Below, piece after piece: positions 751 to 19,696 of a stretch of 64,000 bases of DNA. This DNA is from a virus, in the IMG/VR virus record IMGVR_UViG_3300046517_002304, positions 186,001-250,000 of that record; one strand, 5' to 3'. Within the stretch, counting starts at the first letter, position 1. The number at the start of each line of letters is the position of its first letter. A model generated the notes under the pieces. It did no database searches. It saw nothing but the letters and a program-made list of their open reading frames with translations, and was not told the DNA's origin. A program made the translations under genes and the position numbers.

Positions 751-801
751 ATTATTTTTTCCATAAGTGTATTATAGAATATTTATTCAATCAAGTCTTA
801 A

Positions 802-1857: not shown

Positions 1858-1862
1858 AAACA

Positions 1863-1868: not shown

Positions 1869-1893
1869 GAGTTTGGCACGATATTATTAGTAT

Positions 1894-2280: not shown

Positions 2281-2316
2281 ATATATCTGATGCTTTAACA
2301 AGGAGTCAGAATATCA

Positions 2317-2754: not shown

Positions 2755-2792
2755 AATTAACGGCTATAAAAATTATCCTGTATTAAATTCCA

Positions 2793-2802
2793 TAAATAAA
2801 TA
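2793..2802 (+). promoter_or_regulatory. Possible T4-late-type promoter, doubled TAAATAAATA
   Basis: Two overlapping TAAATA boxes lie 24-33 bases upstream of the ATG at 2826. Spacing would give a short leader of about 15-20 bases carrying a weak AGG ribosome site. Confidence 0.35.
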
Positions 2803-2825
2803 AGACCCTTATTTTAGGCAATTAC

Positions 2826-3731
2826 ATGAAAAAACTACATCTATCCATTGCTTTAGCGTTAATTGCTCTATTCAGCTTTGCATCGCTTGCACCCACTCCG
2901 GTATACGGAAGAAGTACGACAGATAAGCCAGCCGCAACTGCACAGGCTCCCGCTGGAGCTAAGCCTGTAGCTTTAACCGATGATACTGTCATTAAATATT
3001 TGGAAGCGTCTGTGATGATATTAAAAACAGACAATCTACAGCAGGGATGGATGGGAAGTGGTACTGTCTTATATCAAGACATGGATTGGGCATATGTTTT
3101 AACTTGCGCTCATTTATTTGATGATGCAAATCAAAAAGAGTGTGGCATACGATTCTTCTACAAAAATGGAGCGAAGCTTGATAAATCATTAATTTATAAA
3201 GCAGAAATACTTGGAATGAGCCATAAGGAAGATTTATGCTTTATAAGGTTTAAGGCGGACTATGATATTCCTCACTTTAGAATAGCGCCTAGGGATTGGA
3301 CTGCTGATAAAGGTGATTTAATTGTTTCTTGCGGCTTTGACCAGAGAGAAGGGAAGCTAGCAGCCTACAATACGTATTTTGATAAATATGAAGTTTGGAA
3401 TATGGGGCAGTTTAAGTGTGATAAATGCGGGCAAGTCCATTCTTATGAAAAAAGTTTATTTATTATTTCTGCACCAGGATATCGTCATGGTCGTTCTGGA
3501 GGCGGAAGTTTTAGCAAAGAAGGCTATATGATTGGCGTTTGCAGTAGAGGGTCTGAAATTGAGTTCGGCACAGGTAACGGCGGAAGTATTAAGGTGGCAG
3601 ATATTCATGATTATGCCAAGAAGCTAGGATTAGAATTTGTGCTGGATGGCAAAACTAAAACCTTAAGAGAGTCAACCGTCCAAACTAAAAACGGAGAAGT
3701 GCCTGGTTCGGATTATATTCCGGTTCCCTAA
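2826..3731 (+). CDS. Secreted trypsin-like (chymotrypsin-fold) serine protease
   Basis: 301 residues. Residues 1-28 form a Sec signal peptide (MKK, hydrophobic core, cleavage near VYG), followed by a low-complexity Ala/Pro/Thr linker to about 50. Catalytic signatures: H96 in LTCAHLF, D136 in HKEDLCF and S224 in GRSGGGSF, in the order H-D-S of family S1 proteases. An insertion around 198-205 holds CDKCGQVH. The closing tail is short and polar. The C-terminus overlaps the convergent nuclease gene by 4 bases. An exported protease is unusual for a phage; it could act in the periplasm or outside the cell on receptors, rival phage or peptidoglycan-associated proteins (inference). Confidence 0.82.
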   Translation: MKKLHLSIALALIALFSFASLAPTPVYGRSTTDKPAATAQAPAGAKPVALTDDTVIKYLEASVMILKTDNLQQGWMGSGTVLYQDMDWAYVLTCAHLFDDANQKECGIRFFYKNGAKLDKSLIYKAEILGMSHKEDLCFIRFKADYDIPHFRIAPRDWTADKGDLIVSCGFDQREGKLAAYNTYFDKYEVWNMGQFKCDKCGQVHSYEKSLFIISAPGYRHGRSGGGSFSKEGYMIGVCSRGSEIEFGTGNGGSIKVADIHDYAKKLGLEFVLDGKTKTLRESTVQTKNGEVPGSDYIPVP

Positions 3732-4477
3732 AGAACATTTAAGGGTGAGTTCTGGAAGTAAGAACATAAACTTTTATACTCGCACAATCCGCAATGATCC
3801 CCAACTGTTCCTACAACTGTATCTGGATTGGACTCCATAACTTCGTTGTAAACCTTAAGCAGTTTCTTGGGCACATTCTCTAGTGTTTGTTTACTAAACT
3901 TAGCAGAAATAAGGCTTCCACCTTGCAGATAATAAAGTCCTGCTTTAATCTTACTTGGATCTACATTATACATCTCTGAAACCACCCATGTATAACACAT
4001 TAGTTGTAGGTCATTTACCACCGTCTGCATAGTTTTGCGAAACTTGCCTTCTTTGGTGGTTTTAAAATCTAAAATCCAGTATTCGTCATTTCTCTTAATA
4101 ATCATATCCATAAAGCCGACAACAAATTTATTGTGCGGGGCGTCTAAGTCCTTTTTAAATGGCACTTCAATCTCAGCATCTGTACCTATCTTTTTTGACA
4201 GCACCATGAATTGCTTTAAGTCCTTTGGCAATTGTTGGGCATAATGATACGGCAGTGGATTCTCGGTAGTCATTACTTCTTTTGAAATATCATTAATATT
4301 CATCATACCTTTATGCTTGGTATAAAGTTCAATGACCTTATGAACTATTTTTCCATATCTAAACCAGATTTGTTCGGGAATTGGGCTAGGTGTCTTGAGG
4401 TGATATTTTAACTTGTATTTGTATTTACATTGTTCAATAGTCCCAACTCTGCTGACGCTGATATGTTCTATATTCAT
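3728..4477 (-). CDS. PD-(D/E)XK exonuclease with Fe-S cluster, RecB/Cas4/AddB-like
   Basis: 249 residues. The RecB-family nuclease motifs are complete: H46 in GKIVHKV, D124 in GFMDMI and D137-x-K139 in LDFKTT, which coordinate metal and cut DNA. Four cysteines, C17 near the start and C229/C232/C238 at the end (CGLCEYKSLC), match the 4Fe-4S clamp of Cas4 and AddB nucleases. It lies back to back with the primase operon at 4574, so a role in phage DNA replication, recombination or host DNA degradation is likely. There are no CRISPR genes nearby, so an adaptation role is not supported. Family assignment is strong. Confidence 0.85.
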   Translation of the reverse strand: MNIEHISVSRVGTIEQCKYKYKLKYHLKTPSPIPEQIWFRYGKIVHKVIELYTKHKGMMNINDISKEVMTTENPLPYHYAQQLPKDLKQFMVLSKKIGTDAEIEVPFKKDLDAPHNKFVVGFMDMIIKRNDEYWILDFKTTKEGKFRKTMQTVVNDLQLMCYTWVVSEMYNVDPSKIKAGLYYLQGGSLISAKFSKQTLENVPKKLLKVYNEVMESNPDTVVGTVGDHCGLCEYKSLCSYFQNSPLNVL

Positions 4478-4573
4478 ATTGATTTATCGGTTAATAAGAA
4501 AAAATAATTTAAGCCTCAATAGAAATTAGCATTTATACGATAAATTATCATCTGGACCTATTATTGGTGAAGC

Positions 4574-5212
4574 ATGAAGATAAAAGAAGTATTTGATTAT
4601 TTAAAGTCATTGAGCCTTCAGAGCGAGCTAGAGTCACGCATTAAGGCATTCCATGCTCTATGCTCACAGCCGGTCACCGGTAGTCCCGCCGAAGGACTCT
4701 TGCATAATGCTCTTGGTGGCGTAGGCGTTAAAACATCGTGGACTCCTATGAGTCATGCACAAGAAAAAGATATGGTTTTTGAAATAGGCGAAAACAAAGT
4801 TAACGTATCCCAAAAAGGATGTAAAGAGAGTCGCACTAGAATATCTTTTAGCAGTTATCGTACGACTTCAGCAGAACTACTGGAACAAAAACTAGACTTA
4901 ATTGAAAAATTAGATGCCAATCTTCACATGATGTTTGTATTCGCAAGAATGCATACCGGCAAAAACCCGCTGCCTGATTACTACAAGATTTATCTTATTA
5001 ATCCTCATTATTTAAATCCAAAAAAATTCAAGTGGAAAGAAGAAAGAGATGCAGACGGCGTGATTAAAGGATTTCATACTTACACGAATGATTTAAATAT
5101 CAATATGGGTATTGTTCAGAAAATGAGCGGACAACTTTGGGTTGATATCGCTAAGTCCAATTTAGAGAAACATCCAGATATGATTCTTGAATTAATGGAA
5201 ATTAAGATTTAA
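4574..5212 (+). CDS. Hypothetical protein, possible restriction-endonuclease-like fold
   Basis: 212 residues, unrecognised by full length. Residues 38-82 contain an acidic helix (E40), D66 followed by a beta strand and Q80-K81 in NVSQKG, which loosely recalls the PD-(D/E)XK core of type II restriction enzymes, but the canonical acidic residue two before the lysine is a serine. It ends in the same base where the primase ATG begins (TAATG), so the two are translationally coupled and may work together. The nuclease idea is weak. Confidence 0.65.
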   Translation: MKIKEVFDYLKSLSLQSELESRIKAFHALCSQPVTGSPAEGLLHNALGGVGVKTSWTPMSHAQEKDMVFEIGENKVNVSQKGCKESRTRISFSSYRTTSAELLEQKLDLIEKLDANLHMMFVFARMHTGKNPLPDYYKIYLINPHYLNPKKFKWKEERDADGVIKGFHTYTNDLNINMGIVQKMSGQLWVDIAKSNLEKHPDMILELMEIKI

Positions 5213-6204
5213 TGAAATCTGTTAATCATAATACGTTTGTATCCTGGTTGGAGAAGCACTTCGATGTTATCAAGGAACGAGGTCCACAACTTCAAGTTAA
5301 TTCCTTTTTTCATGAAGATAAAAACTTCAAACTTTATTGTAATACAGACAAGAACTGCTATCATTGTTGGTTGTCTAGTGAGTCCGGATCTCTTTTTAAA
5401 CTTGTGTCTATAGTAGAAAAATGCTCATATAAAGAAGCAATGCAAATTTTGGGGGTTGAATCTGAAATTCATAACCTACATGAAAAAGTCAAAGAGCTAT
5501 ATAAAAAGAAAAAAGAGACTCCTATTGACCAAGTAGTAAAACAAATAGGCTTACCAGATGGCGCTTCTAAAATTTCGGATTTATCTAACGACAACCCTTT
5601 TAAGATAAAAGCCATAAAGTATCTTAGCACCAGAAAGATTGATTGCGGGGATTTGTATATCGGGTGCTTCGGCCCAGCGACAGACCGTATTATTATTCCA
5701 TATTATAACAAGAACGGAGCGCTGCTTTACTGGAATGCCAGAACAATTGTTGGGCATCCGCAGAAATACATGTTCCCGCTTAATGACGGAACAGGCAAAG
5801 GAGATTTTCTTTATTTCCCCGTTCATAAAAACGAAAGCAAGATTTATATTACAGAAGGTGAGTTTAACGCAATTACACTTTCGCAGATGGGATTTTTTTC
5901 GGCGTCAACTGGCGGAAAACAAGCGACAGAAAAGCAAATAAGACTACTGAAAAATTATGATGTAGTGGTTTGTTACGATAATGATAAGCCTGGCCGTATC
6001 GGCACATGTAAGGTCGCGAAAGAGCTGATATCAGATAGATTCGGCAGGCAAGTAAACTATGTGCTTCCGCCTAAAGATGTCAACGACTGGAATGATATGC
6101 TGAAGGACGGCAATCTAGAATTAGTTAAAAATTATATTTTATCTAATGAAAAAAGATTTAGCGAGGGGTACTTCAAAGTAGATTACTATATGGATTTTTG
6201 TTAG
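5212..6204 (+). CDS. DNA primase, CHC2-type zinc finger plus TOPRIM
   Basis: 330 residues, close to the size of T4 gp61 primase. The N-terminus has a zinc-binding set (H43 then C54, C60 and C63 in YCNTDKNCYHC). The TOPRIM domain shows the catalytic glutamate in ITEGEFNA and the acidic metal site in CYDNDKPGR. It makes RNA primers for lagging-strand synthesis with the replicative helicase, which is not in this window. The ATG overlaps the stop codon of the upstream gene. Confident family call. Confidence 0.88.
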   Translation: MKSVNHNTFVSWLEKHFDVIKERGPQLQVNSFFHEDKNFKLYCNTDKNCYHCWLSSESGSLFKLVSIVEKCSYKEAMQILGVESEIHNLHEKVKELYKKKKETPIDQVVKQIGLPDGASKISDLSNDNPFKIKAIKYLSTRKIDCGDLYIGCFGPATDRIIIPYYNKNGALLYWNARTIVGHPQKYMFPLNDGTGKGDFLYFPVHKNESKIYITEGEFNAITLSQMGFFSASTGGKQATEKQIRLLKNYDVVVCYDNDKPGRIGTCKVAKELISDRFGRQVNYVLPPKDVNDWNDMLKDGNLELVKNYILSNEKRFSEGYFKVDYYMDFC

Positions 6205-6737
6205 ATCTTCTTTAATCCGTCAAGAAAATTAAAGAGCGGTTCATCGGTATAATCCCAAAAGCCAGAATTGGGCACGCCTTCAATTGATTCAAAATATCTC
6301 ATTGTTTGTTCACTTAGAATGTATGCCCATGCTGTTTCAACCGTAGCAGGATCAGTATAAGCATGTACTAGCTTGCGTACATGGTAATTAAAGCTTCCTC
6401 TACCGTAAAACGACTTTAGTTTATCTAAAAGCAAAATAGCATCAGGATTGGTTATGGTTAACATGTAACCGACTACTATATCTTTGCCGGATACTTTAAT
6501 TAAAGAGTAACTATTGGGGGTATACGAAATTACGCCTAATTTGCCGAATATAAATGCTGGCTTTATATCATAAGAGAAATCTGATAGCTCAGTTTTAAAA
6601 AGACGTGTCCCAGGTTTTAATTCACATGCTAAAAAAAATCTATTAATTTTTCGTATTTGTTTCTCGCCGCTTGACTTTCCGAGACTAAATCTGTTATTGT
6701 TCAAATCAGTTCTCCTGGTACTATGATATTTAATCAT
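6201..6737 (-). CDS. Possible gamma-glutamylcyclotransferase-like protein
   Basis: 178 residues. The pattern of a beta strand (IFGKLGVI), an AWAYIL strand and a closing GVPNSGFWDY segment is reminiscent of the AIG2/gamma-glutamylcyclotransferase fold, but the usual YGTL signature is not clear, so this is a guess. The ATG at 6737 has only a weak ribosome site. An in-frame TTG at 6704 has AGGAG 7 bases upstream and may be the true start, which would also free the opposite-strand start at 6736. Confidence 0.6.
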   Translation of the reverse strand: MIKYHSTRRTDLNNNRFSLGKSSGEKQIRKINRFFLACELKPGTRLFKTELSDFSYDIKPAFIFGKLGVISYTPNSYSLIKVSGKDIVVGYMLTITNPDAILLLDKLKSFYGRGSFNYHVRKLVHAYTDPATVETAWAYILSEQTMRYFESIEGVPNSGFWDYTDEPLFNFLDGLKKI

Positions 6738-7023
6738 GAACCTGAACTATTTTGTTAACAAAATTTGTACCATCCTTACAGTATCAGTAAATTTAGACAA
6801 TCTATCTAAAATGCAAGTCGCAAATATCTTTACTGGAATAGTTGAAGATGTGAGCGATTATGGTGTTTTAATGCGAGCAATGAATGGAAAAAAGTCATTA
6901 TTTTTCCGCGATCACATCGTTGGAATATTAGAAGAAGAAGTAGTGCAAAAGCAGGAAATACCTAAGCCTGTACCACAACCGCTGTCCATTGACTCCTTAA
7001 ACGATATGCTTCTTAAACGTTAA
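6736..7023 (+). CDS. Hypothetical small protein, possibly Sm-like fold
   Basis: 95 residues. Residues 28-65 alternate hydrophobic and polar residues (FTGIVEDVSDYGVLM, then FFRDHIVGI) in a way that recalls Sm/Lsm-like beta barrels. The tail is Pro/Gln-rich. The ATG lies in CATG, sharing bases with the possible start of the opposite gene at 6737. Function unknown. Confidence 0.55.
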   Translation: MNLNYFVNKICTILTVSVNLDNLSKMQVANIFTGIVEDVSDYGVLMRAMNGKKSLFFRDHIVGILEEEVVQKQEIPKPVPQPLSIDSLNDMLLKR

Positions 7024-7267
7024 GATTTTCTGGTGGAGCGTACTCGCCAAACTTCTTAATGTTTAGTAAACACATGTCAAACTTAGAGCAAAGTGAATCA
7101 AAGTATTCAAAGTATAGCTTTTCAAATTCTTTAACTTCTGTTTCTTTGATGTCAAAGTAAACCGTTCGGCCCTTCTTGCCCACAAATTTATATCCGTGCA
7201 TATTGAGCCATGCGGCAATACCTAAATCGGATATTTGTTTTCTAACTTGCTTTTCTGTATCTGTCAT
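7013..7267 (-). CDS. Small hypothetical protein downstream of actin-like gene
   Basis: 84 residues, with an N-terminal helical part (possible DNA-binding helices) and a mixed alpha/beta C-terminus. It lies 15 bases downstream of the actin-like ATPase gene and is preceded by a purine-rich AGAAAGAAAGAA ribosome site, so it is probably co-transcribed with it. It could be an adaptor or regulator of the filament, but no ParR-type motif is recognised. Its end overlaps the convergent gene at 7023 by 11 bases. Confidence 0.65.
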   Translation of the reverse strand: MTDTEKQVRKQISDLGIAAWLNMHGYKFVGKKGRTVYFDIKETEVKEFEKLYFEYFDSLCSKFDMCLLNIKKFGEYAPPENLNV

Positions 7268-7282
7268 TTTCTTTCTTTCTCT

Positions 7283-8293
7283 TTATAAAACACTATTTTC
7301 GGCAGCAATTAAAGCGCCCTTGGCAACAGTAAGTAAGGTGTCTTTAGGCTTTTTAATCGCCCCAATGTTCATTGGAACCTTGTTCTCAATTAAAATTTCC
7401 TTAAACCAATCTTCAAAACCGTTAGGCGAACTAGTTCCACCGCTAAGCACAATATCAACTGGTTCATCCATGTTAAATTTACCATTGTTATCAGCAATTC
7501 CCTTTTTAATTCCGGCCACTGTCTTTTCTATCATAATACGATATTGCGTCATGATAGACCTTTCCACACTAGTTGTAGGCGACTTGGTTAAGTCAATTTT
7601 TGTCTTTTCTCTGTTAATAACGATTGGGCTTTCATTTGTTGCCTTGGCAGACATTTCGTCAATCCAGTCGCCAGAATTTGATATAGAGAAGCTAAAGACA
7701 GGCGTCCCATATACCGCATAACAAACATTGGACATTCCGGCACCATGACTACTGGCTAGACCAGTAAACTTCTTATCTTCTAATTCAGCAAATATAATGC
7801 AAAGCGCCTCATTAACGGCCTGTGGAAGAACCACTTTGTTGTTAACATTATATTTCTTAAAAATTGAATCTAGTATCTTCTGATGGTAATCGGCATCGGA
7901 AAAAGAATTAACGGCGTTGGCCGGAACAGTATAGGCTAAGGTGGCCTTATCTTCATTTACCTCGCCGATAAGACGATGCAACATTGCGCCTAATATAAAA
8001 AATGCTTCTTTTTCCTTAGGGTTAAGACATCCGCCTTGCATTGGTCGCTTTAACTGAATCTCGCTCATAGAATAGGCTAAGTTTAAGCTAGCCTCCCCGA
8101 TTGCAAAGGCAACTTTTTCCTTCTCAATCAGAGGAACCCCTGACTTCTTTAACATATTAAACATATACCTGTTATTAAGCGGTAATTCTACGAATGCGTT
8201 AATATCTTTGGTATACTCAATTTCATTATTTGCATTTCTCTTTGCGCAAACTAACGTGTAAGTTCCAACATCTAGTCCAATACAATTATTCAT
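7283..8293 (-). CDS. Actin-like ATPase (ParM/MreB/Hsp70 superfamily)
   Basis: 336 residues, the size of ParM (320) and bacterial actin-like proteins. Phosphate-1 loop at residues 5-14 (IGLDVGTYTL), a phosphate-2-like loop SSHGAGMSNV near 185, and the adenosine motif VLSGGTSSPNGF near 288-300. Family members polymerise with ATP to push plasmids or phage DNA, or to position virions. The 64-residue gene upstream (5-base gap) and the 84-residue gene downstream form an operon-like cassette as in parM/parR pairs, though neither partner is recognised. Superfamily membership is strong; segregation function is inference. Confidence 0.82.
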   Translation of the reverse strand: MNNCIGLDVGTYTLVCAKRNANNEIEYTKDINAFVELPLNNRYMFNMLKKSGVPLIEKEKVAFAIGEASLNLAYSMSEIQLKRPMQGGCLNPKEKEAFFILGAMLHRLIGEVNEDKATLAYTVPANAVNSFSDADYHQKILDSIFKKYNVNNKVVLPQAVNEALCIIFAELEDKKFTGLASSHGAGMSNVCYAVYGTPVFSFSISNSGDWIDEMSAKATNESPIVINREKTKIDLTKSPTTSVERSIMTQYRIMIEKTVAGIKKGIADNNGKFNMDEPVDIVLSGGTSSPNGFEDWFKEILIENKVPMNIGAIKKPKDTLLTVAKGALIAAENSVL

Positions 8294-8298
8294 TCAAT

Positions 8299-8493
8299 TC
8301 ATTCCTTCTTTAATTCTACAACTTTGCCTATTTCAATATCTGGAATCTCTAAGTCCCAAGGGACTTCTTTATTCTCAACATTGATGCCAATTTTTCCATC
8401 TTGATCTAGCGTAATTGTAAGATTAAGGTTTATTGTTATTTCGCCTTGCTGCGTCTTAGTGATTACGCTAACTGGTTTGGTTAAATGTGCCAT
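8299..8493 (-). CDS. Small acidic hypothetical protein upstream of actin-like gene
   Basis: 64 residues, mostly alternating beta-type sequence (ITINLNLTITLDQDG), acidic, no membrane segment. It sits 5 bases before the actin-like gene and is almost certainly in the same transcript. The position is that of an adaptor in filament operons, but the sequence gives no direct support. Confidence 0.6.
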   Translation of the reverse strand: MAHLTKPVSVITKTQQGEITINLNLTITLDQDGKIGINVENKEVPWDLEIPDIEIGKVVELKKE

Positions 8494-8566
8494 ATTTCAA
8501 TATAGTAAAAAGTTATTTTTTTTATAGAGTTCTTCAAATAAGACATCTATAAACACTAACTTATTA

Positions 8567-8938
8567 ATGTCATTGTCTCCATCTAGGCTTGAGAAAAGAG
8601 ACTTTAATCCTTCTTCTGTTTGTTTTAACTTTTCCACATCCGAAATGATACCTTTATCTGAATTAGCTGCCATTAAAAATAACTATTGCCTTTGCTATAA
8701 GGGGTTTAATCAAGATATTGTTGTTCAAATGAAGTCTCTGAGACATTTAATTGAACAAAAGTATACAAGCATTAACCTTTTTCTTTGTTGTAGAGATGAA
8801 TTACTTTATTTATTAGGCGAAAATGATAAAAATATATGTATATCCAACTATACTAAGGAGAGGTATGCGTATACCCACGAGCTATCTGAGGTGCCAAAAG
8901 GCGAAAATCCCGTAAATATTTTTAGGAAAGATATATGA
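8567..8938 (+). CDS. Hypothetical protein, 123 aa
   Basis: Not recognised. Residues 27-123 look like a compact alpha/beta domain. No Shine-Dalgarno supports the ATG at 8567; the ATG at 8645 (MIPLSELAAI) is an alternative. It ends in ATGA with the next gene, so the three plus-strand genes to 10274 form a coupled operon ending in a GT9-like glycosyltransferase. Confidence 0.55.
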   Translation: MSLSPSRLEKRDFNPSSVCFNFSTSEMIPLSELAAIKNNYCLCYKGFNQDIVVQMKSLRHLIEQKYTSINLFLCCRDELLYLLGENDKNICISNYTKERYAYTHELSEVPKGENPVNIFRKDI

Positions 8939-9498
8939 GTAAATTTAAAGTTAATCTTCGTCAAGGTCGTGCAGGGCGCTTAGATACAAGCGCGGTAGCC
9001 GGAGTTAGTTTTCAAAGAACCGTTCACATTTCTGGACCAGATGGAGTTAATAAAGAGTATGTAGATGGACAAGTATTTGAAGAATCTAATTTTTACAAGT
9101 GTTATTGCCTTCCTGCCTGTAAACCAGAAGATGCTAAGCTACAAATATTAGAAGATGATGGTAGAGAATATGCCCCAAACAGCAAGCATCCTGTTATTTT
9201 TACTAAAGTAATTAATGCACACTCTAACTGTTTGCCAGAGTATACTATTGACGCCAAAAGAGATTGTCATGGAACTATCGTAGCGGCCCAAATCACTAAT
9301 CGTTGCGCAACTGGGTCTGGCGAAGACATAAACGTAAAATTTAACAAGAGCAACAGCGCCATTCTTGAGATTATGGCCGGAGAAACACAAACGTTTGGAA
9401 AAGATGATTTTAATATATCCAATATCGATTTTATTAATAATACTGATCATAACATTAAAATGCAGGTATTAATTTCTGTTGTCTCTGATTTTAAGTAA
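8935..9498 (+). CDS. Hypothetical beta-rich protein, 187 aa
   Basis: Not recognised. The N-terminus is basic (NLRQGRAGRLD), and the rest is beta-rich with several cysteines (CYCLPAC near 60, C101, C111 and C122). The C-terminal third resembles a small jelly-roll-like domain. Overlaps the previous gene by ATGA and the next by TAATG. Could be a structural protein or a substrate or partner of the downstream glycosyltransferase; no firm evidence. Confidence 0.6.
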   Translation: MSKFKVNLRQGRAGRLDTSAVAGVSFQRTVHISGPDGVNKEYVDGQVFEESNFYKCYCLPACKPEDAKLQILEDDGREYAPNSKHPVIFTKVINAHSNCLPEYTIDAKRDCHGTIVAAQITNRCATGSGEDINVKFNKSNSAILEIMAGETQTFGKDDFNISNIDFINNTDHNIKMQVLISVVSDFK

Positions 9499-10274
9499 TG
9501 AAGAATCAAATCTCTATTAAAGAGTTTAATGATAAGAAAGACAAAATTCTTATCATTCGTGATGAGGGTCACTTTGGCGATATCTTGATGCATAGAATGT
9601 TATTTGAAGATATAAAAGCCTTAATCCCAGATTCCCATATAACTTTTGCCTGCCCGAAAAGATATCATGATGCAGCAATGAATCATCCTTATATCGATAA
9701 TCTTATGGACTCTGGTAAAGTGAATGTTGGCGATTTTTTATATGTCTACAACACCGCCAACTCTTGTGAAGAACAGAACCATCATCAACATAAAAGTGAC
9801 ACATGGGCAGAGAAACTAGGTATCAAGTTAGCGAATCATCATATGCACCTTCATGTGGACGCTAGCCATACCGATTCTTCTTTGCCATTATTAATTTTAG
9901 CTCCATTTGCGTCGGATAAAAAGCGTAGTCTAAGTGCTTCACAAGCCAATGATATTATTCAACATTTTGATGGTAAGTACGACATACGGCTAGTACACAA
10001 TTGTTTAGTAGAAGGATTATGTAAAGATGGAATTATTTTTGATACATTCATTCATTTAGCAGAATTAGTGGCGAGTGCTTCGCTGGTGGTTTCTGTAGAT
10101 ACATCTATACTACACCTTGCTGGAGGACTAAATAAAAACACTATCGGATTATTCAGTTGGACATCAGGAAAAATTATGTGCCAGTATTATCCTACGGTTA
10201 AATATATCCAGCACAAATCGCTTAATCTTTCAGATGATTTTGACATCGGCCGCCTAATAGAGATGGCTAAATAA
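9498..10274 (+). CDS. GT9-like (heptosyltransferase-like) glycosyltransferase
   Basis: 258 residues. The N-terminal Rossmann half begins ILIIRDEGHFGDILMHR, matching the RxxxxGDxL start of ADP-heptose:LPS heptosyltransferases. The C-terminal half has SASLVVSVDTSILHLAGGL, matching the family's D[ST]xxxHLA nucleotide-sugar site. Shorter than typical heptosyltransferases (about 320-350), so the second domain is reduced. It probably transfers a sugar to a phage or host acceptor. Convergent with, and overlapping by 8 bases, the gene at 11097. Confidence 0.7.
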   Translation: MKNQISIKEFNDKKDKILIIRDEGHFGDILMHRMLFEDIKALIPDSHITFACPKRYHDAAMNHPYIDNLMDSGKVNVGDFLYVYNTANSCEEQNHHQHKSDTWAEKLGIKLANHHMHLHVDASHTDSSLPLLILAPFASDKKRSLSASQANDIIQHFDGKYDIRLVHNCLVEGLCKDGIIFDTFIHLAELVASASLVVSVDTSILHLAGGLNKNTIGLFSWTSGKIMCQYYPTVKYIQHKSLNLSDDFDIGRLIEMAK

Positions 10275-11097
10275 AGAATTCACTCACGTTACTAATGTTA
10301 GAAATATTATCGTATTTCCATCCGTTTGAGCAATCGCCGATCTTAATTTCGGGGTTTTCTCTTTTCATAAAGAAGGCCATTGTATCTACTATTTCCTGAC
10401 TAATCTTGTGTTGCGGATAAGAATACATGTTGTTTTCTAGTTTTTCAGATCCAGGTCTTTCATCGGCAAATGCATTATCGCAAGATAGCAAAAGTATATT
10501 TGATGACTGAAAAAAATTAGCTATATTTAAAGCAGCACATAAAGGACTTCTGTAATCGTCAATTCTAAATCCAGTTGTGTTATTGAACATAGAAAACTTA
10601 CTCTCGTAGGTAGGATAATACTTATACATTATCCCTTTATATTTTTTAACAAATTCCGAACTAGTTCTTGACGCAACAATGCATGGAGGGAAGTATTTAT
10701 TTTTAGGCAGGAAGGAACAACATTCTTGATATGGATTGTTGACTAAATAAAAATCCATCTTCCCTAATGATGCATTCCATTTTTTTAAAGCTCCGTTAAT
10801 ACCAATTACGATATACGGACCCTTTATTTGTTTTAATATGCTCTGAGCATTTAGAAAATTAAGTCCGTCAGATACGATAACACAATTTTTGTATTTATTC
10901 TTAATTTCGTTAACAGCCATTAAATTTAATGGTCTGATATATGTTTCATTATCAATGAATAATTTGTAGTCTTTTTCAGATGTTAGATTATTAATATCTA
11001 TCGGGTGTAAGCGTATACTAGAGTTTCTTACCCATATGTTATGCTCTGTTAAAGCATACTCGTTATTTTTATACTTTTTAATACGCTTGATTGCCAT
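10267..11097 (-). CDS. Hypothetical protein, possibly DUF115/sugar-transfer related
   Basis: 276 residues. A central Rossmann-like stretch (CVIVSDGLNFLNAQS, then YIVIGINGALKKW, then MDFYLVNNP) resembles the MptE/DUF115 type found in flagellin and surface-glycan modification proteins, in which a fixed-address domain is followed by a nucleotide-binding core. SSNILLLSCDNAFADERPG later also fits that group. Assignment is tentative. It follows the adhesin genes by 22 bases on the same strand and may be transcribed with them. Confidence 0.6.
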   Translation of the reverse strand: MAIKRIKKYKNNEYALTEHNIWVRNSSIRLHPIDINNLTSEKDYKLFIDNETYIRPLNLMAVNEIKNKYKNCVIVSDGLNFLNAQSILKQIKGPYIVIGINGALKKWNASLGKMDFYLVNNPYQECCSFLPKNKYFPPCIVASRTSSEFVKKYKGIMYKYYPTYESKFSMFNNTTGFRIDDYRSPLCAALNIANFFQSSNILLLSCDNAFADERPGSEKLENNMYSYPQHKISQEIVDTMAFFMKRENPEIKIGDCSNGWKYDNISNISNVSEFFI

Positions 11098-11118
11098 GAA
11101 ATAAAATAGCGATAAAAA

Positions 11119-13041
11119 CTACTTTCCGCAAGGAACAAAGTAGAAACAATCCGGCTCATTGCCGTTTTCCGTCATAATTTTCTTCATGTCAAGATGGACG
11201 CTAATATTTACGTCTAATGGCTTAACCTCAATCATTGGTTTATTATCTGGCAGAATTAGTGAAATAAACGCTGGCAAGTCATGCTTCAAGGTAATGAAAT
11301 CTGGACAACCGGTAATTTTGATTTCACTAATCATTTTGCTAGAATCAATGGAAATAACATCTGGTATGCCAGGGTTTTCTATTTTAATCAAACTTGGAAT
11401 ATCATGTTCAATTTTGATTACTCTTGGCACATCATCAGCAATTAAGCGAATATCTTTTATTTCCGGAGCGATTACTCTGATTTCTTTAGGAACATTGCTG
11501 GCATCTATCGATATAGATGGAATAGAAGGAACAACTACATTAATCGTATCTTTGAAGTTGTGCTTCAATGCGATGTATTGAGGAATATTTGCAGGAACAA
11601 TCTTAATTTCAGATGGGATACCAGCAAAGTTATACTCAACATTTGGCGATTCCTCAGTTTCTTCAAAGCCTAAGTCTTCTACGTATGTTTGCTGCCACGC
11701 GGCCACTGATGCGGCACCTGGGCAGGTGATAGAACAAGCGCAGCTAATTACTGGAGGAGTACCCCAGTCTACTGATACTGTTGGCGGATCTCCGAAATTT
11801 ACATTAGGGAAATCAGGAACCATAAATTGAACAGCAGGAAATTGAACCGGACCAAATTGTACGATTGGGAAAAACGGCTGAGCAAATTGTATCGTTGGAA
11901 AGTTTGGGAGCGGACCAAAATTAATTGTAGCAGGTATACCCGGATTATTAATTACAATTACAGATGGTATGGCTGGATTTGTAAAAGAAATAATAGGTGG
12001 CGTAATTGAAATATGAGTAGGAATACTCGGTCCACTAATAATGATTGTATCTGGAATGCTAATTCCAGATAATGTTATTACACTTGGAATACTTCCATGA
12101 ATGTCTATGACGCTTGGAATATTTCCGTGAACATCTATTATACTGGGTATATTAAATGAGCTAATTCCGCTAATTCCTAATGTTAGACATGGAAAGTTAA
12201 TAGGGATTATCGGTAAATCAAAATCTGTAGATGCTATACTAACATTAATGCCAGGAAATGGACTAATAACAGGCACTCCAACGACAATGCCTCCCCCGCC
12301 GCTATTAACCACTGGTTCATTTGAACTTGTTCTCCGAATAGCTGTTTGGGTTATTGTACAATTGCCGTTCGTCACGGTGACTACGGGGTCAATATTGCCA
12401 TTGGGGGCATATGTATGTGTTCCGGGCTGAGTAGATGTTGTTTGGAAGCCGTCGCCAAACTGCAATAAAAAAGTTTGTATGGTGCCTGTTATATCAACAG
12501 TATAGCTCATTACCGTGCCGCTGGCAGGGTCAGAACTAAGAAATTCAATAGTTAAGACAACCGTAGGGCAACCAGAATCGTCAAATATCGGCGGTGTATT
12601 TTGTAGATTTCTAATGCGCCAATCTAAGGTAGACGTATCAGGACTAAAATTTTCACCTACGAAATCTTCGATATCAATAATTGCATCGGCAAGTTGCTTA
12701 TGATGTTCTGCAATTACGAATCCTCTAACTGAAGTTCCAGATGCATTAAACCTTGTATGATCTCCCCCGAAGTTTCTTAAACATCTTTTAAATTTAAATA
12801 TTTTACCATTTACGTCTTTTTCTACTAGATCATAATAAAACAGTTCGCCAGATATGTTTGCAAAACCGTTTTCAGCCCATATCTCATCAGCGTCAATGCC
12901 AACTGGAACAATCGTAATTTCTTCGCTCCATGCTTGATTATCGCCAACGGTTATAGATTCTGATGTGTTGTAAACAGCATAAAGAGTGCTGTCATTGTCA
13001 ATTGCGTTAGGATATACTGGTTGTGGAGGAAATCCTCTCAT
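11119..13041 (-). CDS. Tail adhesin/fibre with IP-x-x-I repeats (third of three paralogues)
   Basis: 640 residues. Residues 1-140 resemble the start of the next two proteins (YPNAIDNDSTLYAV, then IAEHHKQLADAIIDIE). Residues about 160-250 contain a PKD-like strand pattern (LLQFGDGFQTTS). From about 280 to 460 and again 475-610 the sequence repeats a short unit of type IPSVIxIxG every 10-13 residues, as expected for a beta-solenoid or intertwined trimeric fibre. A Cys cluster (SCACSITC) and an acidic stretch separate the two repeat blocks. AGGAG precedes the ATG. Likely host-recognition fibre; receptor unknown. Confidence 0.75.
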   Translation of the reverse strand: MRGFPPQPVYPNAIDNDSTLYAVYNTSESITVGDNQAWSEEITIVPVGIDADEIWAENGFANISGELFYYDLVEKDVNGKIFKFKRCLRNFGGDHTRFNASGTSVRGFVIAEHHKQLADAIIDIEDFVGENFSPDTSTLDWRIRNLQNTPPIFDDSGCPTVVLTIEFLSSDPASGTVMSYTVDITGTIQTFLLQFGDGFQTTSTQPGTHTYAPNGNIDPVVTVTNGNCTITQTAIRRTSSNEPVVNSGGGGIVVGVPVISPFPGINVSIASTDFDLPIIPINFPCLTLGISGISSFNIPSIIDVHGNIPSVIDIHGSIPSVITLSGISIPDTIIISGPSIPTHISITPPIISFTNPAIPSVIVINNPGIPATINFGPLPNFPTIQFAQPFFPIVQFGPVQFPAVQFMVPDFPNVNFGDPPTVSVDWGTPPVISCACSITCPGAASVAAWQQTYVEDLGFEETEESPNVEYNFAGIPSEIKIVPANIPQYIALKHNFKDTINVVVPSIPSISIDASNVPKEIRVIAPEIKDIRLIADDVPRVIKIEHDIPSLIKIENPGIPDVISIDSSKMISEIKITGCPDFITLKHDLPAFISLILPDNKPMIEVKPLDVNISVHLDMKKIMTENGNEPDCFYFVPCGK

Positions 13042-13042: not shown

Positions 13043-15286
13043 TTAATAAACTCCTAAAACCCATTGTTCTCCAGCAGGTCTTGCCGGAAGTGAGCTAAAC
13101 GTTGCCGATGATGCATTGAACTTAATAAATGTATTCACCGAATAATCAAAAGATATATACGCTAAATGATTGCCATCTGATGTAGCCAGTAGTTTTTGTG
13201 ATGGGTCGTCAAACGACATGTTCGCCATACCAGGTATAGTTGGATCTTGATAAGCTACAACAGACGAGTCATAAAGAGCAGACCAAGCCATTGAGTTAAT
13301 GCCAGGCCCGCCGACCGACCATGTGGCTGATGTGGGATTATATGCTAGGACTTCGCCTGTATTATTAAAGAAATATAAACCACCGATTAAGGGGACTAGT
13401 TGACCTTCTAGTTTCGTAGAACCCGGCATATCGTTTAGTTTTTGTATCCCTTGAACTAAATCAGAAAGAACGCCCTGTGTTTGATAAAAGCTTTTAATTC
13501 TAAAATAAGTGCCGTTTGCATCATTTCTAGCAATAAACCCAGTTGAGTTAAACCACGCCGATCTGTATACGCTAAAATCTCCGCTCGCACCGCTGTCTAC
13601 ATTGTTCATTAATTCAACTGCGCCGTTAGTGTAGCTACTTGGCGTAAAGACTGTTGTAGCGGTACTTAAGTCTACCAGACTCATGTTTGTATTGTCTTGA
13701 TTGGTAGATGACGAAACATCTGGCATTGCGTCAGTATTGCCTAGCAAAAAGTAAACTGATTGCGGGGAATTAAGAGATACCCAATTCCAGGCGCGCGAAA
13801 AACTACCACTTAGCGCTGCATTGCAGCTACCGCCTGTATAACAATCGCTAAATCCTTCGTATTCTGTTACATCAATTGTTTGATCAGTCCAACTGCCAGA
13901 CGATACATTATATCCAGTTGCCCAATAGAAATAGGCAGTACCTCTATCTCCTGAATCTGTTGTATCTTTAGCAACAAAGCCAGAATTTCTAAGAAACTCT
14001 TTTTTTTGTTGATTTTCCTGAGGTTCACCAGTCAAAAAGCTGTAGTCTCTAGTTATATTTGGGGAAGCGTTTCTATTATTAGTTTTAAAAACGCTGCCTA
14101 AGGTGTTAAATTCATATGTATTGGCGGTTTTTGTGGCCTGATAGGTTGTGTCCGGGAAAACGGCAAACCATAAATTAGTATCTTCTATAACATCAATAGC
14201 ATCTGGAACTATTGTAGTTCTGTATGCCCCAAATGATGTGTTAACCCTAATTCTTACGTCATATAAACCGCCAGTACTATAGAGCGCTTGGGTTTGAGCA
14301 GAATTAAAATGCTGCAAGTCATCCCCTAGTTTCCAAATATATTGTAATACAGGATCTTCTGGTCTTTCCCCATTATCGGTTACTTCTATGTTTACTAAGG
14401 TGTTTATTTTTGATTTTAAGACGCCTCCGGTGGCCATAGACACGTCCGGCTCAAAAACCTGATTAGTAGGGGATATGTCAAAGAAATCCATTTCTGCGGG
14501 GTCTGGGGCCTGTGCCCTAGCGTTAATCATCTTTTCAAATACTAACTCATCAGTTCCAAAGGCATTGCTAACGGTTAGGCTTACATTATAAAAGGCAGGA
14601 GTGTAATATGTTTTTTCTATTGTTTTGCCGTCAAGATCCACAACGCATGATACTCCACTTGGCACAAACTCAGATACAGATGGTATTCCAGCAGAAACAG
14701 AGACTGATCCGCCATCCCCGAAACACCACTTCCAGTAAGTTGGACTTCTGAAACTAAGATCATCAAAAGTGATTGTTAATGGGACTACGCCAACTTGTTT
14801 ATTTGCAGTAAACCATGCTTTTGGCTGAAGGACAAGGTTCTGCAAAAAATTAGTTCTACCCTCTAATGTATCCCCTAAAGGATTTAGGTCTGTAGTTCCT
14901 TTTACTCCAGCAAAATTCTCAATAGCTATAATAGCATTTTTTATACTGCCGTGATGTTCGGCCATTACGTTTTCTGTGACATTTGTTGACAACTTAGACT
15001 TAGTGGCGTCTGTAAATCCTGGTAAAATCTCTAATTCTGAAAACGTATCGCTAGTAACGACGCCATAGTAAAACGAGACAGCCCTTAGGTCAATTTCGCT
15101 ACATTGATCAGTCAATGTAATAATTCCAGTCGGTGGAAATCGCGATGTATCACCACTAACGGTAATAGATGTATCGCCTGGACTATAGTCTTCAGATAAA
15201 GAAACACGAAGCGAATCGTGTACTAAAAATAGATTATTATCAGTATCTAAGACAGATGGATATAATGATGAACTAGGAATTGTCAT
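13043..15286 (-). CDS. PKD-domain tail adhesin (second of three paralogues)
   Basis: 747 residues. Residues 1-130 form the shared N-terminal domain (YPSVLDTDNNLFLV, AEHHGSIKNAIIAIENFAG). PKD-type modules follow at about 150-260 (WKWCFGDGG, ending YNVSLTVSNAFG) and 290-370 (YIWKLGDDL, YDVRIRVNTSFG). The remaining 370 residues are Ser/Thr/Asn-rich and unrecognised, probably the receptor-binding part. Starts inside an ATGA overlap with the upstream paralogue, so the set is translationally coupled. No signal peptide, consistent with a virion protein. Confidence 0.78.
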   Translation of the reverse strand: MTIPSSSLYPSVLDTDNNLFLVHDSLRVSLSEDYSPGDTSITVSGDTSRFPPTGIITLTDQCSEIDLRAVSFYYGVVTSDTFSELEILPGFTDATKSKLSTNVTENVMAEHHGSIKNAIIAIENFAGVKGTTDLNPLGDTLEGRTNFLQNLVLQPKAWFTANKQVGVVPLTITFDDLSFRSPTYWKWCFGDGGSVSVSAGIPSVSEFVPSGVSCVVDLDGKTIEKTYYTPAFYNVSLTVSNAFGTDELVFEKMINARAQAPDPAEMDFFDISPTNQVFEPDVSMATGGVLKSKINTLVNIEVTDNGERPEDPVLQYIWKLGDDLQHFNSAQTQALYSTGGLYDVRIRVNTSFGAYRTTIVPDAIDVIEDTNLWFAVFPDTTYQATKTANTYEFNTLGSVFKTNNRNASPNITRDYSFLTGEPQENQQKKEFLRNSGFVAKDTTDSGDRGTAYFYWATGYNVSSGSWTDQTIDVTEYEGFSDCYTGGSCNAALSGSFSRAWNWVSLNSPQSVYFLLGNTDAMPDVSSSTNQDNTNMSLVDLSTATTVFTPSSYTNGAVELMNNVDSGASGDFSVYRSAWFNSTGFIARNDANGTYFRIKSFYQTQGVLSDLVQGIQKLNDMPGSTKLEGQLVPLIGGLYFFNNTGEVLAYNPTSATWSVGGPGINSMAWSALYDSSVVAYQDPTIPGMANMSFDDPSQKLLATSDGNHLAYISFDYSVNTFIKFNASSATFSSLPARPAGEQWVLGVY

Positions 15287-16251
15287 TGTATGATGATTTT
15301 GTCGCCTAAACTGAGCTTCTTCTTAGTTCCGTCAGTGAATACAACTAATAAGGATGGTTGATAGGAGCCTGCTACGGTATATATGTGAGTTGCGGTATGA
15401 ACGTCTGGATCAGATGCGGTAAAGAATGTTCCGTCGTCAAAAATCCAATATCTACTTGCTATATCCCCATCTGTTTGATCGATAAAGGTTATATTTGTGG
15501 TATTTGCAATACCAATTACCGGTGTGACATAAAAAAAGGCTTGTGCCTGGTTATTGTTTACGGTAATATAAGATTTCTTTGTTATTATACCTTGAGCACC
15601 CAATGATGTTGTCATGCTCAACTGAACCGTATAAGTCCCTATACTAGCGTAAGTATGCATTGGGCTTACTTCAACGCTCGTATTTCCGTCCCCGAAATCC
15701 CATAGAAAACTTACGGCATTTCCACTAGAAAAGTTTTGAAATGATACTTCTAGTGGCGCTGGTCCTGACGCTGGAAATGCTCTGAACAGAGGAGCAGGTG
15801 CCAACCATCTACTTTCTTGTTTCTTCAAAATGCCATTTAACGATGCATCGGTTGGCTTGTCGCTTACCCCTATATTCGCCTCAATGTTAATAATGGCGTC
15901 TTTTTCGGCATTGTGAACTTCTGCAAAAACACAGCCAAGAACTGGAGTGTTTTTGGGCCATGGTCCTTGTCTAGAGCCAGAAAAGCCTCTTGCCAACTCT
16001 TTAAACGTAGTATCCGTTCTACTTGCATAATAAACAGTTTCTTCCCCCACTTTTATAAGTCCAGAAGAAGGGAATGAAGACGCATCTTGAACAACGATAA
16101 ACTTAGTAGTATAACTAATGCCCTGAGTGGTTACTGTAGATGCATTGTTAGCCACTTGGTAGAGTGTATCCTCTGAATCCAATGCTTTAGGGTAAATACT
16201 TAAATCTCCGGCTATGTATCCGGAATCTAGTGAACTAATTCGGCTTGTCAT
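15283..16251 (-). CDS. PKD-domain tail adhesin (first of three paralogues)
   Basis: 322 residues. The shared N-terminal domain (YPKALDSEDTLYQV, then FAEVHNAEKDAIINIEANIG) covers 1-135. One clear PKD domain lies at about 155-232 (FLWDFGDGNTS, YTVQLSMTTSLG) and a second PKD-like one at 235-320 (RYWIFDDGTFF). PKD folds are immunoglobulin-like spacers common in surface proteins and phage fibres. The ATG is 9 bases downstream of a TAAATA box lying inside the end of the upstream gene. Confidence 0.78.
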   Translation of the reverse strand: MTSRISSLDSGYIAGDLSIYPKALDSEDTLYQVANNASTVTTQGISYTTKFIVVQDASSFPSSGLIKVGEETVYYASRTDTTFKELARGFSGSRQGPWPKNTPVLGCVFAEVHNAEKDAIINIEANIGVSDKPTDASLNGILKKQESRWLAPAPLFRAFPASGPAPLEVSFQNFSSGNAVSFLWDFGDGNTSVEVSPMHTYASIGTYTVQLSMTTSLGAQGIITKKSYITVNNNQAQAFFYVTPVIGIANTTNITFIDQTDGDIASRYWIFDDGTFFTASDPDVHTATHIYTVAGSYQPSLLVVFTDGTKKKLSLGDKIIIQ

Positions 16252-16924: not shown

Positions 16925-17479
16925 ATGGGTAAATTGCGAGGAAACATCACCTATCTTGCTGGAAGTATGGACAACGATCCGACCGGCGGAAACGATTGGC
17001 GTGATGAAATAACTCCATTCTTAAAAAGCAAGGGCGTGGGAGTGTTTAATCCATGCCATAAGCCGATGACATCGGCAGTGGAAGATGGGAAAGTTCGGGA
17101 AAACATTAGTCAGCTTAAGAAAGAAAAAAGATTCGCCGAAATTAAAGAAATCATGAGAGAAATTGTTTACACTGATCTAAGAATGGTAGACAAGTGCGAT
17201 TTTATGATTTTAAACATTGAGCCAGATGTGCATATGTGCGGAAGTTATCACGAATCCAATTATGGAATCATGGAACACAAGCCGATTATTATATTATGCA
17301 GAAAGGGTGTAGAATTTATTCCTAATTGGCTATATGGAATTATTGACATTGAAACAATGTTTGATTCAGTTGGTGGAGTTTGTGAATATTTAGATAAGAT
17401 TGACAGCGGAGCAATTGTGCCTTCATATCGTAAATGGAAATTTTTTGATTTCAGTATGGTGTTTGGAACTAATGAATAA
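16925..17479 (+). CDS. Nucleoside 2-deoxyribosyltransferase-like protein
   Basis: 184 residues. The start ITYLAGSMD, then WRDEITPFL and GVGVFNP, then SYHESNYGIMEHKPIIILC fit the nucleoside deoxyribosyltransferase/DUF4406 fold (Rossmann-like, cleaves or exchanges the N-glycosidic bond of deoxynucleosides). Heads an operon with dCMP deaminase and a fructose bisphosphatase; the stop codon lies 7 bases inside the next gene. A role in nucleotide salvage is consistent with the neighbours. Exact reaction unproven. Confidence 0.7.
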   Translation: MGKLRGNITYLAGSMDNDPTGGNDWRDEITPFLKSKGVGVFNPCHKPMTSAVEDGKVRENISQLKKEKRFAEIKEIMREIVYTDLRMVDKCDFMILNIEPDVHMCGSYHESNYGIMEHKPIIILCRKGVEFIPNWLYGIIDIETMFDSVGGVCEYLDKIDSGAIVPSYRKWKFFDFSMVFGTNE

Positions 17480-17939
17480 GATTATACAAAGTAGCATTTC
17501 TTGGGATAGTTATTTTTTAAACATAGTTAATGACATCGGAAAGAAAAGCAAAGATCCTAGTACTAAAATCGGGTGCTTGATAGTTGATAAGGAAAACCGC
17601 ATTAAGGCAACCGGATACAATGGATTTCCGTCTAAGGTCATTGACTACGAAGAAAGATATACTGACAGAAATCAAAAATTATATTTTACAGAACATGCAG
17701 AAAAAAACGCTATTTTTTATGCTGCCCGCCTTGGAATTTCTGTGGTTGGCTGCAAGATATTCATACCCCTTCATCCTTGTCACGAGTGCTGCCGTGGGAT
17801 TATACAATCTGGTATAGATGAAGTGATTTTTACTAACGACAATTCTAATGGGTATTATGATAGGTGGCGAGAAAGTATCGCATACGCAGATATAATGTTT
17901 GAAGAAGCCGGTATTTTATTAAGAAAGATTGATGTATGA
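17472..17939 (+). CDS. dCMP deaminase family protein
   Basis: 155 residues. The zinc-dependent deaminase motifs are present: HAEKNA at 75-80 (H75 zinc ligand, E77 proton shuttle) and PCHEC at 102-106 (C103, C106 zinc ligands). The family converts dCMP to dUMP, feeding dTMP synthesis; T4 gene cd is a well-known phage case. I chose the ATG at 17472, overlapping the upstream stop (ATGAATAA), because an upstream in-frame start at 17400 lies wholly inside the previous gene and adds 24 non-conserved residues. It ends in an ATGA overlap with the next gene. Confidence 0.85.
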   Translation: MNKIIQSSISWDSYFLNIVNDIGKKSKDPSTKIGCLIVDKENRIKATGYNGFPSKVIDYEERYTDRNQKLYFTEHAEKNAIFYAARLGISVVGCKIFIPLHPCHECCRGIIQSGIDEVIFTNDNSNGYYDRWRESIAYADIMFEEAGILLRKIDV

Positions 17940-18910
17940 AGAACATTAGTTTAGATCTAATTAGAGTTTGTGAAGCAGCCGCTATAGAAGCAGGCAAGCT
18001 TGTTGGCAGTGGAGATAAACTAGAAATTGACCGAGTCGCCACAGACGCTATGCGCAAGAGGTTAAATGAAATACGGTTCGCCGCCAAGGTAGTGGTTAGT
18101 GAAGGAAAGAAGGACGGAGCAGCGCATCTAGAGGGCGAATATGTTGGCTTGCTAGGACGACAGTTCGCCGAAAATTCTTCTGCTGCTAGTGTATCCGAAT
18201 ATAAAAATATACAAGACAGTAAGCCTAATACTTATGAAATCGCACTGGATTCAGTTGATGGCACCACTCCCACATCAATTAATGGAGCTGAAGCAATGAG
18301 CGTCTTAGCAGTTGCTAATGAAGATTGCATGTATGTTCCTCAAAACTTCTACATGAATAAACTGGCTTATGGTGCAAAAATACGGTCAAAAGTAAGGTTG
18401 AATATCTTAGATCCTATTGAGAGAAATGTTGAGCTATCCGCTTTTGCATTAGATAAAAAAATTAATAATCTAATGGTTGGGTTGTTAAACCGCCAAAGGC
18501 ATAATGACATAATAACAAGATTAAGAAAGATGGGAGTTAGACTAAAGCTTCTACAAGATTGTGATGTGTCTGGATGTATAGGAACATGTTTGCCAGAAAG
18601 TGATATTGATTTATTTTTTGGATTCGGTGGAGCGCCTGAATCCATCATAGCAACCGCGGCGATTAAATCCCTCAGAGGAGGATTTCAATCATATGAAGTA
18701 GACAGTAATTTTAAGCAATCTGGTGATGTGATGGACGAGAATGCTTTAATTAGAGGAGATTGTGTTTTTGTAGCTACAGGTGTTCTTAACGGCTCAATGC
18801 TCCGTGGCGTAAGATTTACAGAAGATGGATGTATAACTAACTCGGTATTCATGAGAAGTAAATCCGGAACAATTCGTTGGCTAACGACGCACCATAATCA
18901 CGAAATCTAG
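17936..18910 (+). CDS. glpX: Class II fructose-1,6-bisphosphatase (GlpX family)
   Basis: 324 residues, near the 336 of E. coli GlpX, and collinear with it. Residues matching the known GlpX metal and substrate sites are kept: D32 (GSGDKLEID), E56 (VSEGKKD), D105 and T110 (LDSVDGT) and E235 (GFGGAPES). The enzyme dephosphorylates fructose-1,6-bisphosphate; cyanobacterial relatives also use sedoheptulose-1,7-bisphosphate. It is coupled by ATGA to dCMP deaminase, so the phage may steer host carbon toward pentose phosphates for nucleotides (inference). Two usual acidic positions differ (K58, D108). Could be an inositol-phosphatase relative, but the collinearity argues for GlpX. Confidence 0.85.
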   Translation: MKNISLDLIRVCEAAAIEAGKLVGSGDKLEIDRVATDAMRKRLNEIRFAAKVVVSEGKKDGAAHLEGEYVGLLGRQFAENSSAASVSEYKNIQDSKPNTYEIALDSVDGTTPTSINGAEAMSVLAVANEDCMYVPQNFYMNKLAYGAKIRSKVRLNILDPIERNVELSAFALDKKINNLMVGLLNRQRHNDIITRLRKMGVRLKLLQDCDVSGCIGTCLPESDIDLFFGFGGAPESIIATAAIKSLRGGFQSYEVDSNFKQSGDVMDENALIRGDCVFVATGVLNGSMLRGVRFTEDGCITNSVFMRSKSGTIRWLTTHHNHEI

Positions 18911-18931
18911 AAACGATAACTAGTTTAATGA

Positions 18932-19696
18932 GTGAAGAAAAGTCCATTAGATAAATTTTATACAAAGCCAGAAGTGGCTAAATTCCTTATCAGTAAATTA
19001 AATTTATCTGATTTTGATCTAATCATTGAGCCATCTGCTGGCAATGGGGCTTTTTCTTCACAGATAGATAATTGTTTGGCTTTTGATATTTGTCCGGAAC
19101 ACCCATCAATCGTTGAGCAAGATTTTTTGTTGTATGAATATAATGGAAAAATTACTAGTAGTAAGATTCTTTGCATAGGCAACCCGCCATTTGGCAAACA
19201 GTGCTCTTTGGCCCTAAAGTTTATTAAAAAGTGCTCTGAGTTTTCTGATACTATAGCGTTTATTCTTCCTCTTTCTTTTAAAAAGTCTAGTATACAAAAT
19301 AAAATACCTAAAAGCTATCACCTATTCAACGAGGTGGATATACCCGAAGGTTCATTTTTAATAAATGGAATGTCTTGTTCTGTTCCTGTGGTTTTCCAGA
19401 TATGGAAAAACGAATATGTAGACAGACATCAAGAAGATAAGGTATATCCAGAAGGGTTTCAGTATACGAAGAAAAGCACGGCAAACTTGTCGGTTAGAAG
19501 AGTGGGGGTAAATGCAGGAAAAGCGTTTTACGATACCGATAAATCAGATCAATCACATTATTTTATAAAAACAGATGCCAATATTGTAGATGCTTTAAAC
19601 CGACATCAATGGCAACATAATAACACTGTTGGTCCAAGGTCTATATCTAAGCAAGAATTAAATAAAGTTATAAATGATATAATTAGCCAATTATAG
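18932..19696 (+). CDS. N6-adenine-type DNA methyltransferase (NPPF motif)
   Basis: 254 residues. SAM-binding motif IEPSAGNGAFSSQ near residues 32-44 and catalytic GNPPFGK near 80-86 define a gamma-type class I adenine methyltransferase. GTG start at 18932; the nearby ATG at 18928 is in another frame and stops at once. No nuclease is adjacent, so it is an orphan enzyme, perhaps protecting phage DNA from host restriction. Downstream of the GlpX gene by 21 bases and convergent with the gene at 20288. Confidence 0.75.
   Translation: MKKSPLDKFYTKPEVAKFLISKLNLSDFDLIIEPSAGNGAFSSQIDNCLAFDICPEHPSIVEQDFLLYEYNGKITSSKILCIGNPPFGKQCSLALKFIKKCSEFSDTIAFILPLSFKKSSIQNKIPKSYHLFNEVDIPEGSFLINGMSCSVPVVFQIWKNEYVDRHQEDKVYPEGFQYTKKSTANLSVRRVGVNAGKAFYDTDKSDQSHYFIKTDANIVDALNRHQWQHNNTVGPRSISKQELNKVINDIISQL

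Follow-up and report, generated by a model that had tools for sequence, protein, structure and literature searches.

The window, a 64,000-nt stretch spanning positions 186001-250000 in a virus record of 511,233 bp, carries a glpX gene whose product is apparently a working class II fructose-1,6-bisphosphatase (FBPase), by which the phage probably steers host sugar phosphates toward DNA building blocks. Judged by its sequence, the protein is a member of a divergent subfamily of the class II FBPase sequence family, an assignment to a family and not proof of an FBPase. The best-known cases of phage genes rewiring host carbon come from cyanophages. The carriers of the putative FBPase described here are instead a T4-like lineage of large phages, and the subfamily to which it belongs is absent from PHROGs, BFVD and the true phages of INPHARED. 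If the enzyme is active, large phages would be shown to control the step between fructose-1,6-bisphosphate (FBP) and fructose-6-phosphate (F6P) itself.

The gene belongs to an island of four plus-strand genes (16925-19696) with minus-strand genes on either side, tail and baseplate genes among them:

16925..17479, plus strand, nucleoside 2-deoxyribosyltransferase-like protein of 184 aa (PF15891, 33 bits, barely above the cut-off of 30)
17472..17939, plus strand, dCMP deaminase, start ATG at 17472 (PF00383, 72 bits; phrog_174 dCMP deaminase, 136 bits)
17936..18910, plus strand, glpX, putative class II fructose-1,6-bisphosphatase of 324 aa, DCD subfamily (PF03320, 266 bits)
18932..19696, plus strand, DNA-methyltransferase-like protein with a GNPPF motif, fourth gene of the run (phrog_5172, 195 bits; phrog_799 DNA methyltransferase, 62 bits)

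The end of the deoxyribosyltransferase-like gene, whose product has homologues in phages L029 (39%) and L043 (47%), and the start of the dCMP deaminase gene overlap by 8 nt (ATGAATAA, 17472-17479), while the latter, with intact HAE and PCHEC motifs, overlaps glpX by 4 nt (ATGA, 17936-17939). The initial annotation had described glpX as overlapping with nucleotide genes in an operon; both overlaps proved exact, and the genes are co-directional. Since a consensus promoter scan rose scarcely above shuffles and no plus-strand terminator was found, it is the gene overlap that argues for an operon, in which glpX would be co-transcribed with its neighbours. The gene gave the single GlpX match in the whole 511,233-bp virus genome, and it was rightly called phage-borne, as the window also encodes baseplate wedge and tail proteins, together with a DNA primase. 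Thus, glpX lies between phage genes in a bona fide phage genome, and in the related locus L021 a portal gene is found two genes from glpX. Furthermore, a second IMG/VR record, 3300047312_000379 (L001), matches the window without a difference along its entire 12,990 nt, glpX included, which together with the virion genes makes bacterial contamination of the contig unlikely. Beside the island, the minus strand at 13043-16251 encodes two large proteins with PKD-like repeats (FGDGG/FGDGN), probably of the virion surface or fibre.

Assignment of the window protein to the GlpX family, as first proposed, was borne out by both profile and fold. Residues 3-320 align to positions 2-307 of the PF03320 profile (E 3.4e-79, 266 bits vs a gathering threshold of 27), and M. 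tuberculosis GlpX matches at E 3.9e-53. An AlphaFold2 model built from a 51-sequence alignment reached a mean pLDDT of 94 and retrieved with Foldseek, at E<=1e-3, only FBPase II structures, substrate complexes among them; 24 FBPase II chains matched at E<=1e-28, the best PDB match being 6ayy (E 1.3e-36, TM 0.85-0.89). The first match of the inositol-monophosphatase type followed at E 2.3e-3 with a TM of ~0.33, so that this identity is ruled out by the fold search. Solved GlpX structures (M. tuberculosis 6ayy/7txb, E. coli 3d1r, F. tularensis 7txg), to which the window protein is at best 36-37% identical, agree with it in fold and length, in the metal ligands and the nucleophile Thr, in the Arg-x-Arg that binds phosphate and in the two Asp of the sugar motif. 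The window protein differs from them in having D-C-D for D-G-D, an altered E-G-E-x-D loop, an insertion of ~20 residues at about 76-98, modelled with low confidence, and a short C-terminus. It also scored only 209.4 bits against TIGR00330, the glpX equivalog model with a curated NCBIfam cut-off of 259.3, whereas in the same subfamily the sister phage L020 and the Omnitrophota loci L058 and L059 score above it (269-286) and L060 falls short (258); accordingly, activity is less certain for the window copy than for its relatives. No PHROG profile matched the protein, BFVD viral structures held no comparable fold at E<=0.001, and no true phage was found among the five INPHARED matches (H1-H5), which look bacterial: they are contigs of bacteria or fragments lacking annotation, and bacterial neighbours surround glpX in those that were inspected.

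The active site comprises the following elements:

18101..18115, plus strand, E56-G-K58-K-D60 loop, metal ligand Glu56 and Asp60 kept, K58 for the usual Glu (counts from alignment A3)
18248..18265, plus strand, D105-S-V-D108-G-T110, with metal-binding Asp, Asp108 and the nucleophile Thr110 (roles from PMC5892879, PMC10289334)
18491..18499, plus strand, R186-Q-R188 of the 6-phosphate pocket (alignment A3; PMC5892879)
18557..18565, plus strand, D208-C209-D210, sugar-hydroxyl motif with Cys for Gly, the subfamily signature
18638..18640, plus strand, Glu235, metal ligand (Mtb Glu208), invariant in alignments A3 and A4

The catalytic-site residues published for the M. tuberculosis and E. coli enzymes (in M. 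tuberculosis numbering D27, E51, D79, D82, T84, Y114, R159, R161, D183 and E208; PMC5892879) are all ten present in the window protein, as D32, E56, D105, D108, T110, Y139, R186, R188, D210 and E235, which upholds the earlier claim that they are kept. Invariant over the 51 aligned sequences are K28, D32, E56, D60, D105, T110, Y139, R188, D208, D210 and E235. The initial annotation had further held that two usually acidic positions differ, K58 and D108. The first is a real replacement of the usual Glu; the second is no anomaly, as the family has either Asp or Glu at this position (Asp82 in M. tuberculosis, Glu88 in E. coli; PMC5892879) and D108, the counterpart of Asp82, is ordinary. Nor is K58, which corresponds to E. 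coli Glu59, an individual peculiarity: the position is Glu in all 15 D-G-D-type GlpX sequences and Lys, Ile or Glu in the window's own clade, where Lys is common, and is thus a clade trait.

The scans of viral sequences yielded 37 glpX loci, about 24 of them non-redundant besides the window. Besides the window copy and 24 further loci from phages, the subfamily takes in every GlpX found in Omnitrophota and a single planctomycete sequence, and D-C-D is read in every subfamily viral locus that covers the motif as well as in these bacterial members. In contrast, D-G-D is found, where the motif is readable, in the other cellular sequences and in a second, unrelated viral group (L011-L016, 27-30% identity). 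Some members of that group (L012:7986-8885, L014:7986-8888, L015, L016) encode a GlpX of about 300 aa, 27-30% identical to that of the window, whose gene overlaps by 8 nt an ORF of 658-660 aa that is terminase-large-subunit-like by eye and has no PHROG match. Cellular relatives were drawn from a scan of genome contigs, and among the best 80 matches listed were six Omnitrophota (47-51% identity) and one planctomycete (43%), the rest being at <=39%. A full-length GlpX match was present in 10 of 193 Omnitrophota genomes, in each case D-C-D, whereas in 294 genomes of planctomycetes D-C-D was seen in just one of the readable matches. The viral glpX pairs measured are under strong purifying selection (dN/dS 0.03-0.10), the window copy having no close homologue for such pairing.

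In the tree, all D-C-D sequences fall into a single clade (support 100/100, stem 0.68), whose nearest neighbours are Thermotogota (97/86). The phylogeny proposed in the initial annotation thus places the window copy in a subfamily of mostly large phages and a few Omnitrophota, as the most divergent member of the clade (end branch 0.94), and the pattern is unchanged when this long-branched row is left out. The Omnitrophota sequences group together (97/93) and branch from within the phage sequences, while the planctomycete GlpX is nested in another phage group; a single monophyletic clade of phage sequences was rejected (AU p 0.00018). As read from this topology, the fewest changes would be reached if the phage lineage were old and had twice passed the gene to bacteria; alternatively, there may have been several captures from unsampled bacteria. 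We hypothesize, tentatively and with some doubt, that the D-C-D class II FBPase evolved in phages and that those Omnitrophota having an FBPase got their only detectable one from them. If this were true, viruses would have supplied central metabolism to a bacterial phylum.

The Omnitrophota proteins (L054-L059, L134-L143) are the nearest cellular relatives of the window GlpX, with 45-51% identity and C209 in all, and they differ from the phage copies in their chromosomal context, which was checked in L058 and L059. In L058, glpX is followed by yebC, ruvC and ruvA, and in L059 it is adjoined by isocitrate lyase and malate synthase genes, a gluconeogenic setting; on account of these neighbours, mis-binned phage contigs can be rejected for both loci. 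In seven such Omnitrophota genomes, neither a further GlpX, bar a short partial match in G003, nor an enzyme of the class I (PF00316) or FBPase_3 (PF01950) type was found. As the only FBPase found there, the D-C-D GlpX very likely works as the FBPase of these bacteria.

The signature itself touches on the question of substrate. According to PMC10289334, every class II enzyme conserves the motif IxDGD, which contacts the furanose hydroxyls; the window protein instead reads LQDCDV, and this C209, passed over in the initial annotation, is a stronger departure than K58. In alignment A3, residue 209 is Cys in 31 of 31 subfamily rows and Gly in all 15 others, and sites 36, 62, 64, 112 and 119 likewise separate the two classes. 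Together with the annotation of cyanobacterial class II enzymes as taking both FBP and sedoheptulose-1,7-bisphosphate (5a5l, 3roj), these features would suit a subfamily whose substrate has shifted to another sugar bisphosphate, such as sedoheptulose-1,7-bisphosphate or a pentose bisphosphate, by way of Cys209, the loop at 58/62/64 and the helix at 112/119 behind the nucleophile. However, both motif Asp, the 6-phosphate arginines and Tyr139 are kept, and no FBPase other than the subfamily member was found in the bacterial genomes, where one copy sits beside the glyoxylate-shunt genes, and we regard such a shift as unlikely. For any change of substrate, C209 would be a better candidate site than K58 or D108.

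In related phages, glpX occupies a different place. Two features of the window are relevant here:

5212..6204, plus strand, DNA primase (phrog_47, 133 bits; homologues of 31-37% identity in 9 phages)
6736..7267, no strand assigned, usual glpX site of the relatives, occupied by two short ORFs (6736-7023, plus; 7013-7267, minus) and no glpX (tblastn synteny)

Nine related phage contigs (12-533 kb) carry primase, usually a short gene, and glpX in a row, with glpX 0.5-3 kb downstream of the primase homologue, and by tblastn the window genes at 1-13041 are syntenic with this primase block. Since glpX is absent from its usual site in the window and present ~11 kb away in the plus-strand nucleotide cassette, it was either moved or lost and regained, and was kept. 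Adjacent to the vacant site, the minus strand at 7283-8293 encodes a 336-aa protein that is 48-57% identical across the nine phages and whose start (MDxGTYN-like in the relatives) suggests an actin-like fold; Pfam Volactin matched a single ORF in the neighbourhood of glpX, a match that is not tied to this protein. A survey of 143 ORFs near glpX in 19 phages returned as recurrent neighbours primase, head closure, dNMP kinase (3), MazG (2), IMPDH (2), saccharopine-dehydrogenase-like (3) and RIIB (2) genes. In phage L050, a Nuc_deoxyri_tr2 gene lies directly upstream of glpX. The same position is taken in L029 (8516-9991) by a complete gene for an aldehyde dehydrogenase (PF00171, 450 bits).

With fair confidence, we favour a model in which the phage GlpX converts FBP into F6P and thereby feeds pentose phosphates and nucleotides; for the window protein, we infer catalytic activity, FBP as its substrate and this direction of flux. 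A metal-dependent GlpX would hydrolyse FBP to F6P and phosphate, would during infection oppose the host phosphofructokinase step, and would leave more F6P for the non-oxidative pentose-phosphate enzymes of the host. From established pathways, host transketolase and transaldolase would be expected to turn F6P into ribose-5-phosphate, which would feed a phage PRPP synthetase; the resulting nucleotides would feed phage ribonucleotide reductase and dCMP deaminase, the latter presumably supplying dUMP for dTMP. Genes for PRPP synthetase (prs) and the ribonucleotide reductase large subunit are indeed present in the 511-kb genome, and an ORF read from the sequence as IMPDH/GMP-reductase-like (L148:6997-8058) lies ~1.7 kb from the phage prs.

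Cyanophage talC, zwf, gnd and cp12 are carbon-flux genes acting presumably toward pentose phosphates, and phage glpX resembles them as a phage gene that would redirect host central carbon, but it concerns a different enzyme and step, and the host need not be a cyanobacterium. The close analogy drawn in the initial annotation is not supported, because no transaldolase was found in the 511-kb phage or in 20 glpX-bearing phage records, which also removes this enzyme as a phage partner. PRPP synthetase is no constant partner either: prs was found in one of the 20 other glpX-bearing records, many of which are fragments, and, with the 511-kb genome counted, only in the two largest records. With no phage transaldolase and prs so rare, the nucleotide link is firm for the 511-kb genome only.

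This scarcity of prs, the position of glpX beside primase and outside a nucleotide operon in most relatives, and a family-9 glycosyltransferase homologue in the same block of both window and relatives would also fit a captured gluconeogenic host FBPase whose benefit is not nucleotides, one that slows host glycolysis by lowering FBP or supplies F6P for amino sugars and glycans. Against this stands the overlap of the window glpX with nucleotide genes, as well as the recurrence of dNMP kinase, MazG and IMPDH near glpX elsewhere, and we consider it distinctly improbable. We return to the supply of pentose phosphates and nucleotides as the preferred reading, with a reservation for the window copy itself: S55, S106, C12 and L284 are its own, at positions where 43-45 of the 45 other sequences share a different residue (G55S, P106S and T12C; Gly55 and Pro106 in 45/45 aligned relatives), and as the most divergent copy, below the TIGR00330 cut-off and with S55 and S106, it could, to judge from these replacements, have reduced or altered activity. 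That it is a decaying or non-catalytic remnant, as the long branch, these substitutions and the low equivalog score might imply, is very improbable given its intact reading frame, the retention of every listed catalytic residue, its presence in L001, the overlapping starts with intact neighbours and the confident predicted fold.

Viral glpX has previously been listed as an auxiliary metabolic gene in the available portions of two surveys (PMC12615777, PMC12448302), and as not validated in those of a third (PMC12713726); these portions give lists without subfamily, motif or lineage. The main text of Tian et al. 2024 mentions neither glpX nor a bisphosphatase. The presence of the gene alone is therefore not new; new here are the subfamily, its D-C-D signature and the phage-centred tree.

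Two further genes were observed in this phage. The window encodes at 46549-47985 an RtcB-type tRNA-splicing ligase (phrog_1075, 290 bits), and a 245-aa ORF elsewhere (L148:14731-15468; phage genome 152730-153467, minus strand) resembles the core of a tryptophanyl-/tyrosyl-tRNA synthetase, with the motifs PTGKLHLGH and KMSKS.
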